A DNA stretch of 10,575 nucleotides from positions 1-10,575 of the forward strand of contig CAKREJ010000052.1 of NCBI GenBank assembly GCA_934317185.1. Direction: 5' to 3'. The DNA is from an uncultured Anaerobutyricum sp. (GTDB taxonomy: Bacteria; Bacillota; Clostridia; Lachnospirales; Lachnospiraceae). The translations under genes were made by a program, and so were the position numbers. Shown here in pieces: positions 1,861 through 8,005 of this stretch (its first letter is position 1; every line of letters starts with the position of its first letter). The notes under the pieces were generated by a model. That model saw nothing but the letters and a program-made list of their open reading frames with translations, had not been told where the DNA came from and ran no database searches.

Positions 1861-3294
1861 ATGAGTAAACAATACGAAACAGTCATTGGTCTGGAAGTTC
1901 ATGTAGAGCTTGCTACGAAGACAAAGATTTTCTGTGGATGCAGTACAGCTTTCGGTGGTGCACCTAATACACATACCTGTCCGGTTTGTACAGGTATGCC
2001 GGGATCTCTTCCTGTACTGAATAAGCAGGTCGTAGAATATGCGGCAGCCGTAGGTCTTGCAACTAACTGTACGATTACTCAATACTGTAAGTTCGATCGT
2101 AAGAATTACTTTTATCCGGATAATCCACAGAATTATCAGATCTCCCAGCTATATCTTCCAATCTGCCGTAATGGATATGTAGAGATTGATGTAGATGGCA
2201 GAAAGAAAAATGTGCGAATCCATGAGATTCATATGGAAGAGGATGCAGGAAAGTTAGTACATGATCCGTCTACAGGTAACTCTTTGGTAGATTTTAACCG
2301 AAGTGGTGTACCATTGATCGAAATCGTGTCGGAGCCGGATATGCGTTCTGCCGAAGAAGTTATTGCTTACCTCGAAAAGCTTCGTATGATTATTCAGTAT
2401 CTCGGAGCATCTGACTGTAAGCTTCAGGAAGGTTCCATGAGAGCAGACGTTAACTTATCTGTTCGTGAAGTTGGAGCAGAGGAATTCGGAACAAGAACAG
2501 AGATGAAGAATTTGAACTCCTTTAGTGCGATCGCAAGAGCAATTGAGGGAGAGATGGAACGTCAGATTGATTTGATCGAAGATGGCAAGAAGGTTGTGCA
2601 GGAGACAAGAAGATGGGATGATGATAAAGAATATTCTTATCCAATGCGTTCAAAAGAAGATGCACAGGACTATCGTTATTTCCCAGAGCCAGATCTTACC
2701 CCGATTGTAATTTCCGATGAATGGTTAGACGAGATTCGCAGCCGTCAGCCGGAGTTCAGGGATGAGAAGCAGGCACGTTATAAAGAACAGTTTGGTCTTC
2801 CGGAATATGATATTAATATTATTACAGAAGATAAAACACTGACAGATTTATTTGAATCCTGTATTGAACTGGGTGCAGCCGCAAAAGAAGTATCTAACTG
2901 GATTATGGGAGATATTATGCGTCTCTTAAAAGAAAAAGAAATGGAAGCGGCTGATATTGATTTTAGTCCAAAGAATCTTGTAAAAATGATTCAGATGATC
3001 GAAGCTGGGGCAATTAACCGTAAGGTAGCTAAAAAGGTATTTGAGGCAATCTTTGATAAAGATGTGGACCCGGAAGTTTATGTAGAAGAGAATGGCTTAA
3101 AGACTGTAAACGATGAAGGTGCATTACGAAAAGTCATTGAAGAGATTGTTGCCAATAATCCGAAGTCTGTAGAAGATTATAAAGCTGGTAAGAAAAAAGC
3201 TATGGGATTCTTTGTAGGACAGACTATGAGAGCTATGAAGGGGAAAGCAGACCCGGCGATGGTTAATCAGATTCTTAAAGAAATATTAGATTAA
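1861..3294 (+). CDS. gatB: Glutamyl/aspartyl-tRNA amidotransferase subunit B
   Basis: tRNA-binding kinase subunit: it phosphorylates the misacylated Glu or Asp on the tRNA with ATP and then amidates it with ammonia from GatA. The 477-aa product has the family hallmarks: GLEVHVEL (10-17), a four-cysteine zinc site (C25, C27, C40, C43, in FCGCS and HTCPVCTGMPG), EGSMRADVN in the cradle domain, and a C-terminal helical/YqeY-like tail (about 330-477) that recognises the tRNA. AGGAGG at 1846-1851 precedes the ATG, and the gatA stop lies 1 bp upstream, consistent with coupled translation. Full length and intact. Directly after its stop codon begins the first hairpin element, which probably ends the transcript. 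Confidence 0.97.
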   Translation: MSKQYETVIGLEVHVELATKTKIFCGCSTAFGGAPNTHTCPVCTGMPGSLPVLNKQVVEYAAAVGLATNCTITQYCKFDRKNYFYPDNPQNYQISQLYLPICRNGYVEIDVDGRKKNVRIHEIHMEEDAGKLVHDPSTGNSLVDFNRSGVPLIEIVSEPDMRSAEEVIAYLEKLRMIIQYLGASDCKLQEGSMRADVNLSVREVGAEEFGTRTEMKNLNSFSAIARAIEGEMERQIDLIEDGKKVVQETRRWDDDKEYSYPMRSKEDAQDYRYFPEPDLTPIVISDEWLDEIRSRQPEFRDEKQARYKEQFGLPEYDINIITEDKTLTDLFESCIELGAAAKEVSNWIMGDIMRLLKEKEMEAADIDFSPKNLVKMIQMIEAGAINRKVAKKVFEAIFDKDVDPEVYVEENGLKTVNDEGALRKVIEEIVANNPKSVEDYKAGKKKAMGFFVGQTMRAMKGKADPAMVNQILKEILD

Positions 3295-3473
3295 TACTAA
3301 TTTGTTTAAGTGACGGACGAAAAATAAAAAAGAAGCAGGTAGCATCTGTGCCAGTAGTCGCTTCGTGTTGAATGCTCGCTTATAGCCTGCATTCAATACT
3401 CACTCCGAGGTCACATCTGCTAACCTGCTTCTTTTTTATTTTTCTGTCTGCCTGCTCCGGAAGTAAATTAGTA
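3295..3473 (-). repeat. Structured hairpin element, copy 1 (inverted relative to copy 2)
   Basis: A 179-bp element beginning at the base after the gatB stop codon. Its ends are a perfect 9-bp inverted repeat, TACTAATTT (3295-3303) and AAATTAGTA (3465-3473). Inside is a long stem: AAAAATAAAAAAGAAGCAGG pairs with CCTGCTTCTTTTTTATTTTT. Next come TAGCA/TGCTA, a 2+2 nt mismatch, TGTG/CACA, a large asymmetric internal loop, and an apical stem (3365-3375 with 3389-3399, one G-U). The reverse complement matches copy 2 almost exactly in the internal-loop strands, while the outer and apical stems differ but remain paired. I assign it to the minus strand, taking copy 2 as reference. It may be a structured RNA, a miniature mobile element or both. 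Confidence 0.8.
3319..3444. terminator. Probable bidirectional rho-independent terminator formed by copy 1
   Basis: The inner stem of copy 1 is flanked by A-rich sequence on the left and CTTCTTTTTTATTTTTC on the right, so either strand gives a stable stem followed by a U-rich run. Lying 25 bp after the gatB stop, it is the only candidate terminator for gatCAB. The stem is much longer and more ornate than a simple terminator needs, so termination may be only part of its role. Confidence 0.6.
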
Positions 3474-3635
3474 TTTTATGTTGGGGGAAAGAAGTGGGAG
3501 AGCACGGAAGTGTGTGCTTTATTTCGCATATTTTCTTTCCACTACTGATTTAGCGAAAAGAGTAGACATTTTGTCTACTGGAGATTTTCAATGATTAATT
3601 TTCACAATCTTATGGAGATTCCCCATGCCTCCCTC
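3474..3635. other. Non-coding spacer between the two hairpin elements
   Basis: These 162 bp hold no credible ORF. GGAAAGAA (3486-3493) can pair with TTCTTTCC (3533-3540), enclosing a small hairpin AGCAC/GTGCT (3501-3505 with 3514-3518). A perfect 8-bp inverted repeat follows at 3561-3579. GGAGATT occurs twice (3580-3586 and 3614-3620). Any promoter for the NUDIX gene that is independent of gatCAB most likely lies here, because only 17 bp separate copy 2 from that gene's start codon. Confidence 0.5.
3561..3579. promoter_or_regulatory. Perfect inverted repeat, candidate operator
   Basis: AGTAGACA (3561-3568) and TGTCTACT (3572-3579) are perfect reverse complements separated by TTT. There is no T-run after it, so it is not a terminator. 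Both -35-like hexamers I can find here fall inside it (TAGACA 3563-3568 and TTGTCT 3571-3576). Their possible -10 partners are weak: TTCAAT at 3587-3592 and ATTAAT at 3594-3599. The site could therefore be a repressor operator over a promoter for the downstream gene. The binding protein is unknown. Confidence 0.35.
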
Positions 3636-3818
3636 AACTAATTTAATTCTCATCTACAATTTAGCAACAAACAGAAAAATAAAAAAGTATCAAGTAGCAG
3701 ATGTGACCTCGGAGCAAGTAAAGAATGCCATCAGGCATTCTTCACGAAGCGACTACGGGCACAGATGCTACTTGATACTTTTTTATTTTTCGTCTGTTTC
3801 TAATGAATTAAATTAGTA
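3636..3818 (+). repeat. Structured hairpin element, copy 2 (in the probable NUDIX 5' leader)
   Basis: Second copy of the element, inverted relative to copy 1. Outer ends ACTAATTTAATT (3637-3648) and AATTAAATTAGT (3806-3817) are perfectly complementary. The inner stem runs from AAAAATAAAAAAGTATCAAG into TAGCA, opposite TGCTA and CTTGATACTTTTTTATTTTT. Then come a tandem GA/GA mismatch, TGTG/CACA, an internal loop (ACCTCGGAG on one side, CACGAAGCGACTAC on the other) and an apical hairpin AAGAATGCC/GGCATTCTT with loop ATCA (3721-3742). The loop strands match copy 1; the stems differ by compensating changes. It also ends in a T-rich tract (3779-3790), so it could terminate or attenuate transcription into the NUDIX gene. 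I do not recognise it as a named riboswitch or ribozyme class. Confidence 0.8.
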
Positions 3819-3835
3819 TTTAGAAAGGATTATTT

Positions 3836-4420
3836 ATGTGTGAAAAAAAAGTACCTGTATTGAATTCTATGACTAAGAATCGTGATACGCATTTTCTTAA
3901 AAGTTATACATTAAATTATACAAACGCAGAGGGTAATGAAAAGCTTTATGAAATGGTAAGTAATTTTAATTATGAAAGACCGGAGGAAATAGGGCAGAAA
4001 GCTTCTGGTGTAGTAATCGTAGGGTTTTGTGCACAAGAGCTTCTTCTTTTAAGGGAGTTTCGTATGGGTGTAAATCAGTTTATTTATAATATGCCGGCAG
4101 GACATCTGGAAGAAGGAGAAGTGGTAGAAGAGTGTGCAAGGCGAGAACTTATAGAAGAAACAGGTCTTCATATTAAAAGAATCTGCAAAATACTTCCTCC
4201 TGCATATGCTGCCCCTGATTTGAGTGATTCCTCTGCGTGGGTTGTTATGGCAGAGGTTGAGGGCAGATTTAATCCGCAGACAGAAGCGGATGAGTATATT
4301 CAGCCTTTATTTGCAGATAAAAAGCAGCTTGAAAAAATGTTGGAAACGGAAAGGTTTTCAGGAAGAGCACAATTAATAGCATACCTTTTTTGCAAGCTGG
4401 GAAATAAGATTTTTGCATGA
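3836..4420 (+). CDS. NUDIX hydrolase, probable ADP-ribose/nucleotide-sugar pyrophosphatase type
   Basis: Cytoplasmic hydrolase of nucleoside diphosphates linked to another moiety. The 194-aa product has a complete NUDIX box at residues 89-111 (G-x5-E-x7-REL-IEE-TGL; all catalytic Glu present), preceded by REFRMGVNQFIYNMPAGHL. The NMPAG-H-L-E-EGE context and a C-terminal helical region resemble the ADP-ribose pyrophosphatase (NudF-like) group, but substrate cannot be fixed from sequence. ATG at 3836 has AAGGA (3825-3829) 6 nt upstream. It appears monocistronic: hairpin copy 2 ends 17 bp before the start and a terminator follows the stop. Expression may be controlled by the structured element in the leader. 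The family is sure; the specific reaction is inferred. Confidence 0.88.
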   Translation: MCEKKVPVLNSMTKNRDTHFLKSYTLNYTNAEGNEKLYEMVSNFNYERPEEIGQKASGVVIVGFCAQELLLLREFRMGVNQFIYNMPAGHLEEGEVVEECARRELIEETGLHIKRICKILPPAYAAPDLSDSSAWVVMAEVEGRFNPQTEADEYIQPLFADKKQLEKMLETERFSGRAQLIAYLFCKLGNKIFA

Positions 4421-4469
4421 GATAATTTTAAAAGAATTACTGGCGATGGATTAAACAATTTGGTAAAAG

Positions 4470-4517
4470 AACTCAGGAAACAAGAGAGGAGTATTTTGTT
4501 TTCTGAGTTTATTTTTG
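4470..4517 (+). terminator. Rho-independent terminator after the NUDIX gene
   Basis: AACTCAGGAAACAA (4470-4483) pairs with TTGTTTTCTGAGTT (4496-4509), giving a 14-bp stem with a single G-U pair and a 12-nt loop, followed by TATTTTTG. It lies 50 bp after the NUDIX stop and separates that gene from the ltaS-type transcription unit. Confidence 0.85.
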
Positions 4518-4535
4518 TTATAAATTAAAAAGCCT

Positions 4536-4564
4536 TTGTTTTCATTCCCAATTTGTGCTATCAT
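4536..4564 (+). promoter_or_regulatory. Promoter for the ltaS-type gene (extended -10)
   Basis: TTGTTT (4536-4541), a 17-bp spacer and TATCAT (4559-4564) with an extended-10 TGC immediately before it. Transcription would start near 4571, only about 18 nt before the ATG of the first leader ORF and about 80 nt before the large gene. Confidence 0.6.
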
Positions 4565-4588
4565 GTGGATTGTCATTAAGGAGATTAG

Positions 4589-4630
4589 ATGAAAAAAGTT
4601 TTTCTTCAGGGACGAGGGGAAGAAAAATGA
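4589..4630 (+). CDS. Putative 13-aa leader peptide ORF
   Basis: ATG at 4589 reads MKKVFLQGRGEEK and stops with TGA at 4628-4630. It has a strong ribosome binding site, AAGGAG at 4578-4583, with 5-nt spacing, better than that of the large gene downstream. It follows directly on the predicted promoter. Its stop overlaps the ATG of a second mini-ORF in an ATGA junction. Too short for homology; the case for translation is the ribosome binding site and the chain of overlaps. It may only deliver ribosomes to the downstream ORFs. Confidence 0.4.
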   Translation: MKKVFLQGRGEEK

Positions 4631-4653
4631 AAGGTTGGAATGAATTAAGATGA
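4627..4653 (+). CDS. Putative 8-aa leader peptide ORF linking to the ltaS-type gene
   Basis: ATG at 4627 reads MKGWNELR and stops with TGA at 4651-4653. Both ends are ATGA overlaps: its start overlaps the stop of the 13-aa ORF, and its stop overlaps the start of the 698-aa gene. AGGGGAAG (4615-4622) lies just before it. Such overlaps are typical of translational coupling by termination-reinitiation. With so few codons, chance is a real alternative. Confidence 0.35.
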   Translation: MKGWNELR

Positions 4654-6746
4654 ATAAAATAAAAAAGAGAAAGGCGGGAATCAGAGATTTCTTTAAGGGA
4701 AAGCATGGAAGAAATTTCCTGTTAGTTTTGGATGTTTTGCTGGCAGTTGCCTTTTTTGCAAAGCCTGACTTATATTATAATCCGGAAATCTCGAATTTTT
4801 TTGATCGCTTTTATGCAGACTCTCTGATTATCTGTGGAGGTTTATGGGCAGTCCTTATTTTCCTCACTGTTAAAAAGATTCATTTTTCGGCAGAGGTGAA
4901 TAAGATTTTAACTTATATTGCGGGAATCGCCACACCATTTATGGCATTTTTATGGTTGGAGTTTTATAATGATGCACAGTTCTGGGTACCGATTTTTAGT
5001 ATTCCATTTTTATATCTGATATTAGATATTATCGTGTATTATGTGATTTATGCACTATTTCTGCTGATTTTTAATAGCATACGAGGTGCATCAATTTGTA
5101 TGATTATCGTAACAGCGGTATTCGGGATTTTTAATTATGAACTGACATTATTTCGAAGTATGTCATTTATTGCCTCAGATATTTACTCATTTTTGACAGC
5201 GGTTTCGGTAGCAAATACTTATCAGGTACAGATTGATGTAGATACGGCTGAATTTTTTATGATGGCAGTTGTGCTGGTTGCCCTTTTATTAAAGCTTGAT
5301 AAAGTAAAGCTTTTTAAGTGGAAGGGGCGGATTGTGTATACGTTAGTATGCTGCATGATTTTTGCCGGCTTTACACAGGTTTATGTATACAGTGATTATC
5401 TTGAAAATATCGGTGTTGATTTTCGTGTATATCGTCCGCAATATAAATACCGTTATTATGGAACGCTGCTTACAACATTGCGAACATTCGGCTATCTTCA
5501 TGTGACACAGCCGGAAGATTATTCAGTAAGTGCAGTTAAAAAGATTACGAAACAGTATAAGGAAAGTGATACTGCCGGGGAACAGGGAAATAATACAACT
5601 GCAGAGACACAAAATAAAACAGTCAAAAAGCCAAATGTAATTGCGATCATGAATGAATCCTTTGCCGATTTAAAAGCAGTGGGTGATCTGCAGGTTTCTC
5701 AGGATTATATGCCTTTCTTTCGCAAATTAAAAGAGAATACGATTAAAGGTTATACATATTCTTCGGTATTCGGTGGCAATACTGCCAATTCAGAATTTGA
5801 GTTTATGACGGGAAATACTCTGGCATTTCTTCCGGATAACTCTGTTCCTTATCAGCTTTTCCTGCGAAGTAAAACAGCAGGATTGACATATACTTTAAAG
5901 GATCAGGGCTATAGTCCATGTTATGCATTGCATCCATTTTATAAGACTGGCTATAGCAGATACAAAGTATATCCGTTGATGGGATTTGATAAATTTTATA
6001 CCTCTGATAATTTTTCTGTGTTTACGGATACAGTAAATTACCATATTACTGATTCGGAAGATTATAAAAAGCTTATCAGTCTTTACGAGAATCGTACAGA
6101 TAAAGATAAACCATTTTACCTGTTTAATGTAACAATGCAAAATCACGGAAGTTACGATGGAAGTACATTGGAAACAGGTGACTCAGTACAGATAGAGGGT
6201 GATCTGCAGTCCTACTCCAAAGCAGAACAGTATTTGAATATGATAAAAATGTCGGATAATGCATTAAAAGAACTCGTTCATTATTTTGAAAAAGTAGAAG
6301 AGCCGACAGTTATCGTATTTTTTGGAGATCATCAGCCGGATTTAGAGGAAAGCTTCTATAACCGTCTGCTTCACAGTGATATTCAGAAGTTAGAAGGAGA
6401 GGAATTAGAACAGCTTTATAAAGTCCCATTTTTAATCTGGGCCAATTATGACATTAAAGAAGAAACAGTAGAACGCACCAGCAATAATTATCTTTCTACT
6501 TATCTTGCAGAAGTAGCAGGAATCGAAAAAACAGGTTACCTTGAATATCTGACAAAGCTCAGAGAGGAGATTCCGGCAATTAATGCGATTGGATACTGGG
6601 ATAAAAACGGAAAGTTTTATGAAATAAATGATGAAAAATCTCCATATTATGAATTGATACATGAGTATAATCTGCTTGAATATAATAATCTCTTTGGAAA
6701 AGATGATCAGCAAAAAGACTTCTTTTACCTGAAAAAACAGAGGTAA
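4650..6746 (+). CDS. LTA synthase family (LtaS-type) membrane phosphoglycerol transferase
   Basis: Polytopic membrane enzyme with an extracellular sulfatase-fold domain that transfers phosphoglycerol from phosphatidylglycerol onto lipoteichoic acid or another surface glycan. The 698-aa product has a basic N-terminus, several hydrophobic segments between about 22 and 247 (more than the five of S. aureus LtaS), a linker, and a catalytic domain at about 327-625. Active-site residues are visible: Glu336 in IMNESF, Thr378 in GGNTANSEFEF (catalytic Thr), His499 in MQNHG, and Asp560-His561 in FFGDHQPD, equivalent to S. aureus LtaS E255, T300, H416, D475 and H476. An in-frame stop just upstream (4641-4643) rules out a longer ATG start. 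The gene lacks a good ribosome binding site of its own; its ATG overlaps a leader ORF stop. Whether the product is true LTA or a glycan modification is unknown. Confidence 0.9.
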   Translation: MNKIKKRKAGIRDFFKGKHGRNFLLVLDVLLAVAFFAKPDLYYNPEISNFFDRFYADSLIICGGLWAVLIFLTVKKIHFSAEVNKILTYIAGIATPFMAFLWLEFYNDAQFWVPIFSIPFLYLILDIIVYYVIYALFLLIFNSIRGASICMIIVTAVFGIFNYELTLFRSMSFIASDIYSFLTAVSVANTYQVQIDVDTAEFFMMAVVLVALLLKLDKVKLFKWKGRIVYTLVCCMIFAGFTQVYVYSDYLENIGVDFRVYRPQYKYRYYGTLLTTLRTFGYLHVTQPEDYSVSAVKKITKQYKESDTAGEQGNNTTAETQNKTVKKPNVIAIMNESFADLKAVGDLQVSQDYMPFFRKLKENTIKGYTYSSVFGGNTANSEFEFMTGNTLAFLPDNSVPYQLFLRSKTAGLTYTLKDQGYSPCYALHPFYKTGYSRYKVYPLMGFDKFYTSDNFSVFTDTVNYHITDSEDYKKLISLYENRTDKDKPFYLFNVTMQNHGSYDGSTLETGDSVQIEGDLQSYSKAEQYLNMIKMSDNALKELVHYFEKVEEPTVIVFFGDHQPDLEESFYNRLLHSDIQKLEGEELEQLYKVPFLIWANYDIKEETVERTSNNYLSTYLAEVAGIEKTGYLEYLTKLREEIPAINAIGYWDKNGKFYEINDEKSPYYELIHEYNLLEYNNLFGKDDQQKDFFYLKKQR

Positions 6747-6917: not shown

Positions 6918-7895
6918 ATGAAGGGGAAAAAAGCAAGACAGTTTTTGGGAGTATTATTATTACTTGTAATTTGTGGATTTTTTGCAACGAAAAAAGTAGA
7001 TGTAATGGCCTATAGTAGTACATTGCAAAAAGGTCAGACACAGAATAGTATTACTGTTTCCTGGGAGAAACCAACATACTATAATGTTACAGGATATAAG
7101 CTGTATCTTGGCAAAGATTATTCAGATGTAAGTAAGAGAACACCGATTAGTCTGAATGCCGGTGCTACGTCCTATACGTTTCAGAGGTTATCCGCCGGAA
7201 CGCAATATTATGTTCAAATTCAGTATGAATATACGACCTCTTACGGAGGACCTTATACAAGTACGTTAAGAAGTGGCTATGTGACCACACTTCCGGGTAA
7301 GGTTACAGGAGTAAAGCAGGATCGCTGGTGGAGATATGCGTTATCCGTAGATGCTACCTGGACAAAGCAATCAGGGGTTTCCGGATATCAATATATAATA
7401 CGAGACAGCAGAAATAAGATAAAGAAAAATGAAAAGTCTACATATGGAACAAGAGCAGACTGCAAGATAAAGAATAATATGTTGTATACATTAACAGTTC
7501 GTGCGTATACAGATATTAACGGAAAGAAATATTATGGAGCGTGGTCTGACAAAGCATATCTTTTTACACAGCCGGAAATTTCAAAGCTTAGCATCAAGGG
7601 AAAGAAGCTTATAGTAAAATGGAAGAAGATCAGCGGAGTGACGGGATATGACGTTTATGTTTCCACTAAGAAAAATAAGGGCTATAAAAAAGTAAAAGCG
7701 GTAAATGCTAAGAAGAGTTCTGTAACAGTAACTAAGGTTAAAAAGGCTAAAATTAATAAAAAGAAGACATACTATGTATATGTTGTAGCTAAGAAAAAGG
7801 TTGGTAAAAGAATTTACGGTTCGGGAGTGAATTATATTTCCATCATTAAAAAAGGAAAATTTACAGCCGGAGATTTGAATTATATTCAAAAGTAA
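6918..7895 (+). CDS. Secreted fibronectin type III repeat protein with a Lys-rich C-terminal domain
   Basis: A 325-aa exported protein of unknown function. Residues 1-31 form a Sec signal peptide (basic MKGKKARQ, hydrophobic FLGVLLLLVICGFF, likely cleavage near VMA/YSS). Three FN3-like beta-sandwich units follow: about 34-125, 126-217 and 218-311. Each shows the ITVSW/ATWTK/VKWKK tryptophan strand, a G-Y-x-L/Y-Y motif (VTGYKLYL, VSGYQYII, VTGYDVYV) and a Y-Y/Y-T strand. There is no LPXTG, SLH or other recognised anchor. The third unit is extraordinarily basic: residues 223-314 hold 29 lysines and one acidic residue. That suggests electrostatic retention on anionic wall polymer, made perhaps by the LtaS-type enzyme upstream (inference). 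AAGGAGAAGGA (6903-6913) gives the ribosome binding site. Confidence 0.75.
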   Translation: MKGKKARQFLGVLLLLVICGFFATKKVDVMAYSSTLQKGQTQNSITVSWEKPTYYNVTGYKLYLGKDYSDVSKRTPISLNAGATSYTFQRLSAGTQYYVQIQYEYTTSYGGPYTSTLRSGYVTTLPGKVTGVKQDRWWRYALSVDATWTKQSGVSGYQYIIRDSRNKIKKNEKSTYGTRADCKIKNNMLYTLTVRAYTDINGKKYYGAWSDKAYLFTQPEISKLSIKGKKLIVKWKKISGVTGYDVYVSTKKNKGYKKVKAVNAKKSSVTVTKVKKAKINKKKTYYVYVVAKKKVGKRIYGSGVNYISIIKKGKFTAGDLNYIQK

Positions 7896-7939
7896 GTGAA
7901 TAAAGTAATAACATATTGAGTTTTGCATTATAAACTATC

Positions 7940-8005
7940 AAAAGGTGGTATCAGCAGGAACAGTTGCCTGAACGTTTCTGCTGATACCACCTTTTTGTGT
8001 TTTTA
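7940..8005. terminator. Strong hairpin terminator between convergent genes
   Basis: An 18-bp perfect stem (7940-7957 with 7978-7995), extended by a G-U and three further pairs to 22 bp, closes a 12-nt loop. On the plus strand it runs into CTTTTTGTGTTTTT, a good terminator for the FN3 gene. On the minus strand the stem ends in only CCTTTTG, so it would terminate mtlR more weakly, although it is placed 60-120 bp past the mtlR stop. Confidence 0.9.

Follow-up and report, generated by a model that had tools for sequence, protein, structure and literature searches.

An inverted pair of palindromic intergenic elements after gatB, possibly MITE-like two-way terminators

Two inverted palindromes between gatB and a NUDIX gene

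The window analyzed here, meaning the whole stretch of 10,575 nt, holds gatA, gatB, a NUDIX gene and the genes for a sulfatase-domain protein, an fn3 protein, and a PRD/PTS-type regulator, as identified from open reading frames (ORFs) and Pfam domains (for gatA and gatB: Amidase, GatB_N, and GatB_Yqey). Position and sequence indicate that gatC probably lies before gatA and gatB. The NUDIX protein has 267 relatives; among the 120 of these matches that were listed, the closest named one belongs to a Eubacterium sp. MAG (74%), and the other named ones belong to Clostridiales, Hespellia, and Lachnospiraceae. No transposase was present among the six window proteins run against Pfam. The interval from the gatB stop (3294) to the NUDIX start (3836) is occupied by an inverted pair of related elements. 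Copy 1 follows the gatB stop directly, with its end overlapping the stop codon (3292-3294), while copy 2 lies 5' of the unrelated NUDIX gene, and a spacer of 161 bases separates them (Table 1).

Almost the whole length of each copy, ~180 bp, is palindromic, and terminal inverted repeats, ACTAATTT..AAATTAGT, bound it. These repeats, which the first-pass annotation of this DNA had missed, are perfect over 11 bp in copy 1 and 13 bp in copy 2, and because they pair too, the whole element is a single palindrome. On the strand read by that annotation (minus for copy 1 and plus for copy 2; here, the reading strand), the 5' side runs from the ACTAATTT terminal repeat through a flank of 20 (copy 1) or 29 (copy 2) bases, GAAAAATAAAAAAG, and a 7-bp variable stem to TAGCAGATGTGACCTCGGAG. 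There follow an apical hairpin, part of which is variable, then CACGAAGCGACTACNGGCACAGATGCTA, the complementary stem, and CTTTTTTATTTTTC, and finally a flank of 15 or 18 bases and AAATTAGT. Tracts of A6 and T6ATTTTT flank the stem on both sides, and the 22-nt arms of the copy 1 hairpin are 100% complementary.

Several further features describe the elements as units. The string ACTAATTTA occurs three times in the window (0.30 expected), at three of the four element ends, both ends of copy 2 among them. The ends of copy 1 can be read as TA..TA; the left end of copy 2 carries CA, without a terminal TA, and no target-site duplication was clear by eye at the ends of either copy. The elements are shorter than ~200 bp, and their coding capacity is limited to ORFs that run through them. 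The G+C content of the copies (39.9% and 33.7%) compares with 37.9% for the window and 30% for the flanks outside the hairpins.

Table 1 Features of the gatB-NUDIX interval and its two elements
Feature	Position	Strand	Description and basis
gatB	1861..3294	+	Pfam PF02934, PF02637; stop codon touches copy 1
NUDIX hydrolase gene	3836..4420	+	Pfam PF00293; downstream of copy 2
Copy 1, whole element	3293..3475	-	11-bp terminal inverted repeats 3293-3303 and 3465-3475; blastn, sequence
Copy 2, whole element	3637..3817	+	13-bp perfect terminal inverted repeats 3637-3649 and 3805-3817; sequence, fold
Copy 1 hairpin	3319..3444	-	Base GAAAAATAAAAAAG / CTTTTTTATTTTTC, 7-bp variable stem, asymmetric core, apical stem; fold
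Copy 2 hairpin	3674..3791	+	Plan as in copy 1, variable stems differ; fold
Copy 1 core, 5' half	3403..3422	-	TAGCAGATGTGACCTCGGAG; pattern match
Copy 2 core, 5' half	3695..3714	+	TAGCAGATGTGACCTCGGAG; pattern match
Copy 1 core, 3' half	3340..3367	-	CACGAAGCGACTACTGGCACAGATGCTA, of the form CACGAAGCGACTAC-N-GGCACAGATGCTA; sequence, alignment
Copy 2 core, 3' half	3743..3770	+	CACGAAGCGACTACGGGCACAGATGCTA, of the form CACGAAGCGACTAC-N-GGCACAGATGCTA; sequence, alignment
Copy 1 variable outer stem	3333-3339 and 3424-3430 (plus-strand numbering)		AAGCAGG/CCTGCTT
Copy 2 variable outer stem	3688..3694 (TATCAAG) / 3771-3777	+	Three two-sided changes
Copy 1 apical stem	3368-3375 and 3389-3396 (plus-strand numbering)		TTGAATGC..GCATTCAA
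Copy 2 apical stem-loop	3721..3742	+	AAGAATGCC..GGCATTCTT; two two-sided changes

Smaller hairpins and repeats lie nearby. In the spacer between the copies is a small hairpin, AGTAGACAAAATGTCTACT (3561-3579), with a T-rich tail on the minus strand. A terminator-like hairpin with a T-tract (17 pairs, 4 of them G-C) is located 3' of the NUDIX gene at 4469-4510. An inverted repeat at 7940-7995 (22 bp, 95% complementary, 12-base loop, AAAA/TTTT ends), with the fn3 gene on one side and the convergent PRD regulator gene on the other, resembles an ordinary bidirectional terminator; some microRNA models in Rfam match it weakly. The right terminal repeat of copy 2 stands immediately 5' of the putative NUDIX ribosome-binding site AGAAAGGA (3805-3836), and this end of the element may contribute part of the NUDIX promoter or leader.

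Likeness, folding, and paired changes of the two copies

To compare the copies, we used copy 1 (184 bases) as a blastn query against the window, which recovered copy 2 with 79.5% likeness across 161 positions (E 5e-35). This likeness takes in the hairpin and the terminal repeat on the right, and the MAFFT alignment shows likeness at the left terminal repeat too; in the flanks between hairpin and ends, 38 of 66 columns agree. When up to three mismatches were allowed, TAGCAGATGTGACCTCGGAG was found twice in the window, exact both times, where 0.00 were expected from 200 shuffles. With both halves of the core located in each copy, the first-pass description of two inverted copies with common core motifs holds.

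Both copies fold with unusual stability. The stretches 3292-3475 and 3638-3821 (184 nt each) gave z scores of -10.4 and -12.9, with 0 of 200 shuffles as stable in each case, and minimum energies of -76.9 and -77.5 kcal/mol when folded alone. For a 530-nt transcript over both copies, the computed minimum pairs copy with copy at -240.8 kcal/mol, a value that includes the spacer left out of the two single-copy values. Local and inter-copy folds could therefore compete, and we infer that local hairpins would form first while transcription proceeds. The fold is not peculiar to one strand: the two hairpins have energies of -58.6 and -62.2 kcal/mol on the other strand versus -61.2 and -62.3 on the reading strand, and copy 2 with its flanks folds better on the other strand (-90.5 versus -81.7 kcal/mol).

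The first-pass fold, drawn here for both copies, has 45 and 46 pairs, all of them standard. Among the 44 shared pairs, 39 are identical and five have changed on both sides and still pair, with no one-sided change. The stems are thus different yet paired, as had been claimed, and the two-sided changes agree with the view that this is no plain duplication. Sliding the partners by one to three columns lowered the two-sided changes to between zero and one, and a rough estimate under independence put their coincidence at 4e-9. In a column-shuffle control the observed level was reached by 18 of 500, a weak result because only two sequences are compared. The minimum-energy fold of copy 2 gave a more mixed count (n = 47), with 39 pairs the same, six two-sided (one broken in copy 1), and two one-sided (one broken). 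Internal-loop columns were identical at 21 of 25 positions between the two copies and differed at four. Stems that vary in step around a mostly unchanged non-complementary core fit selection on a fold.

Such changes have another possible source. Template switching during replication can produce multibase compensatory changes in one event, as described in passages of one report (PMC8794818), and covarying stems in a palindrome are for this reason no sure mark of RNA selection. The five changes lie in two short blocks (three within 7 bp and two adjacent). The first-pass claim that covarying stems mark a selected RNA fold is accordingly retained in part, since the changes fit selection and, by the same passages (PMC8794818), fit template switching as well.

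Database searches and relatives in run-through ORFs

Rfam gave no match overlapping 3292-3821 at E values up to 1, so that a known RNA family was rejected for the element and the view that it has no named class stands as far as Rfam. Four weak Rfam matches, all below gathering scores, fall at 7533-8003, three lying within an ordinary palindrome; they are to eukaryotic microRNA or lncRNA models. A terminator scan did not list the hairpins, which its loop limit of 8 excludes by design. In a scan for sigma-70-like sites at 3100-4700, none was found on the plus strand and two on the minus strand, other promoter types lying outside the scan.

One possibility is that further copies lie elsewhere, and several searches bear on it. 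Genome contigs were scanned with the exact string GACCTCGGAG.., which would miss even P0121, the nearest of the relatives described below, because an isoleucine codon in P0121 breaks the string. Exact-pattern scans returned 18 matches, two in genome contigs and 6, 0, 1, 3, 6, and 0 in viral contigs. All 18 were rejected as chance because none matches both core halves; the best (L011) agrees at 18 of 20 positions in one half, 16 of them fixed by the scan itself, and at 14 of 27 in the other. Viral contigs searched with the NUDIX protein yielded six stretches and no confirmed relative. Blastn of both copies against plasmids and phages gave no match or weak partial ones (E 0.2 to 0.5), and three core strings of 14 to 16 letters did not occur in the open-licence literature searched. 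The exact-pattern scans, the plasmid and phage blastn, and the ORF searches yielded no copy proven to lie at a second locus.

Relatives came from ORFs that run through the elements. Two database proteins, P0121 and P0122, are accidental ORFs through related elements; the search gave one relative per ORF, with one candidate each. P0121 (63 aa; 6 member sequences, 3 contigs) is 89% alike to the copy 2 ORF over its whole length and has in common with it the copy 2 flanks and the four residues before the left terminal repeat, which most likely makes it the copy 2 ortholog. P0122 (60 aa; 3 member sequences, 11 contigs) is a relative of copy 1. Within the element, up to the end of the terminal repeat, P0122 and copy 1 differ by 16 forced mismatches in 128 positions. 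Beyond the terminal repeat, 28 of 52 positions are mismatched, and 2000 random window stretches average 29.8 (sd 3.1). A likeness that stops at the terminal repeat would be expected of a mobile element residing elsewhere, or of an orthologous site whose spacer is saturated. For the stretch 3625-3816, P0121 reads RSDYWHRCYLLLFYFSSV in its 3' half, exactly as copy 1 does and unlike copy 2, which hints at gene conversion between the inverted copies.

These proteins also allow the fold to be examined in relatives, through counts that accept every synonymous codon and are lenient because the bases at synonymous positions are unknown. In P0121, 45 of 46 pairs can form (43 without a forced change and two with one), and a single outer-stem pair cannot. 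In P0122, all 18 testable pairs can form (15 without and three with a forced change), the alignment being ungapped, so that an indel could explain part of a cluster of differences at 3417-3421. When partners were slid by one to three positions, 31 to 36 of 46 pairs could still form in P0121, and the counts for P0122 were 11/19, 16/19, 11/19, 12/17, 12/16, and 13/15. Of the six pairs with forced changes, three pair on the reading strand only (as G-U), none on the other strand only, two on both, and one on neither. The other strand's own fold allows 21 of 23 testable P0122 pairs; the forced change at 3402, where P0122 has the base already present in copy 2, is G-U there. The first-pass interpretation gains from the three pairs specific to the reading strand and loses from the folding of the opposite strand, which is nearly equal and, for copy 2 with its flanks, better.

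The relatives bear on the loops as well. Forced new bases fall in loop columns that are identical in both copies at 1 of 19 (P0121) and 3 of 17 (P0122) positions, and in identical paired positions at 2 of 79 and 7 of 55. In these small numbers the loops are not slower than the stems. In P0122 the loop changes affect the tandem G-A at its G, the GAAG loop, and an A-C mismatch that can now pair. Loops described as invariant are hence largely constant between the two copies and change no less than stems in the relatives, and the core loses its standing as a special invariant feature.

Possible MITE-like terminators and the competing accounts

A discrete palindrome of ~180 bp that is bounded by terminal repeats suggests a repeat of the MITE-like sort, which is a known kind of element. 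Bacterial MITEs are usually AT-rich, and the element departs from them in its ordinary G+C content. The intrinsic terminators of Firmicutes, including bidirectional ones, consist of an A-tract, a stem, and a T-tract placed after a gene's stop codon. The A-tract/stem/T-tract base of the element is that of an intrinsic terminator, whereas the Firmicutes terminators have a short loop and the element has a long structured core common to both copies. This core is more elaborate than a terminator requires, a point against the terminator reading.

Known repeats offer parallels. In size, terminal repeats, and long stem-loop transcripts the element agrees with the features that two reports give for bacterial MITEs (PMC2229807, PMC10969869). 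ERIC (IRU/RU-1) and RUP, both bacterial MITEs, resemble the element in the description there (<200 bp, short terminal inverted repeats, long stem-loop transcripts; PMC2229807), a likeness of description and not of sequence, with the element's own dispersal, target duplication, and mobility being putative. The nearest known repeat in style is SPRITE of pneumococcus, which the cited passages describe as terminator-like and enriched near gene 3' ends, with a target-site duplication that could not be established (PMC3049150). Like the element, SPRITE is a small intergenic repeat with an A-tract and a T-tract around a long stem (PMC3049150). SPRITE itself is AT-rich, a duplex of 18 bp that ends in AAAA/TTTT, and is again likened by description, not by sequence; in the element, by contrast, the tracts lie inside inverted repeats of 11 to 13 bp, the asymmetric core is long, and the G+C content is ordinary. 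From 40 genomes, 92 families of stem-loop repeats were reported, of which 67 had not been described before (PMC2267715), and a new repeat in a little-studied lineage would thus be unsurprising.

We give about an even chance to the reading of the two copies as non-autonomous, MITE-like intergenic palindromes in which the stem and its A- and T-tracts serve as an intrinsic terminator in both directions. Each copy carries terminal inverted repeats; between them a long stem, whose core is asymmetric, runs from an A-tract to a matching T-tract. In favor of this reading are the two inverted copies and their stable, nearly whole-element palindromes, their placement at the gatB stop and before an unrelated gene, and the P0122 likeness that ends with the terminal repeat. 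Against it count the ordinary G+C content, the lack of a target-site duplication visible by eye and of a proven second locus in the searches above, and the six Pfam-run proteins without a transposase. By sequence and fold, the stem is followed directly by a T-tract in both orientations. Transcription from either side would yield a long hairpin and then U-rich sequence, and a hairpin with a U-rich tail in both directions is most likely a two-way intrinsic terminator; termination would also be the simplest working role. Copy 1 would then terminate the gatB transcript, and copy 2 may shield the NUDIX gene from readthrough. Past mobility may have been supplied by a transposase in trans, and stem pairing may be maintained by selection, by template-switch repair of the arms, or by both.

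The competing accounts differ mainly in what they make of the core and the paired changes. A local inverted duplication without RNA function, in which gene conversion keeps the copies alike and template switching between the arms keeps the stems perfect, strikes us as somewhat unlikely. The clustering of the two-sided changes in two short blocks is what template-switch events could make, going by the cited passages (PMC8794818), and the common core varies in relatives; the reading of RSDYWHRCYLLLFYFSSV in the most likely copy 2 ortholog hints at exchange between copies, but these two W/L residues may be alike by ancestry. The asymmetric loops, moreover, ought to have been erased by repeated template switching. 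A dedicated structured RNA or single-stranded DNA family would have covarying stems under selection and a core (tandem G-A, single A bulge, CUACN bulge, GAGYRA/GAAG loop) selected for its three-dimensional fold, to which a protein or ligand binds; it would explain why the shared pairs show two-sided changes only, why 21 of 25 loop columns are identical where arm correction is expected to give fully complementary arms, why the relatives' pairs exceed the slid controls (11 to 16 of 15 to 19 in P0122), and why half of the forced-change pairs favor the reading strand. Against it stand the loops' lack of extra constancy in relatives, the outer pair that is impossible in P0121, the comparable fold of the other strand and the P0122 pairs it allows, and a lenient pair count beside two DNA sequences only. 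We consider such a family unlikely.

Two further accounts assign the core or copy 2 a regulatory role. In one, which we think quite unlikely, an undescribed RNA module rides on a palindromic mobile element, and its asymmetric core binds a protein or ligand and tunes termination in both directions; the tandem G-A, A bulge, CUACN bulge, and purine-rich loop of this module's core are held in the terminator stem. In the other, copy 2 would serve the NUDIX gene as an attenuator or riboswitch in its leader, and copy 1 would be a displaced duplicate of copy 2. Copy 2 does lie on the NUDIX strand, with its T-tract ending ~45 bases before the start codon. This arrangement is nonetheless highly improbable: copy 1, being inverted, faces the end of gatB, and a leader would be useless there, the scan described above gave no plus-strand sigma-70-like site (among the promoter types it covers), and there is no Rfam match.

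If the MITE-like element is dispersed, its copies would serve as natural replicates in which selection for paired RNA can be told from the repair of palindromes by template switching, since template switching can keep the stems and cannot keep the asymmetric core. With dispersal, the annotation of Eubacterium- and Lachnospiraceae-like genomes would gain a repeat family that is so far unlisted.
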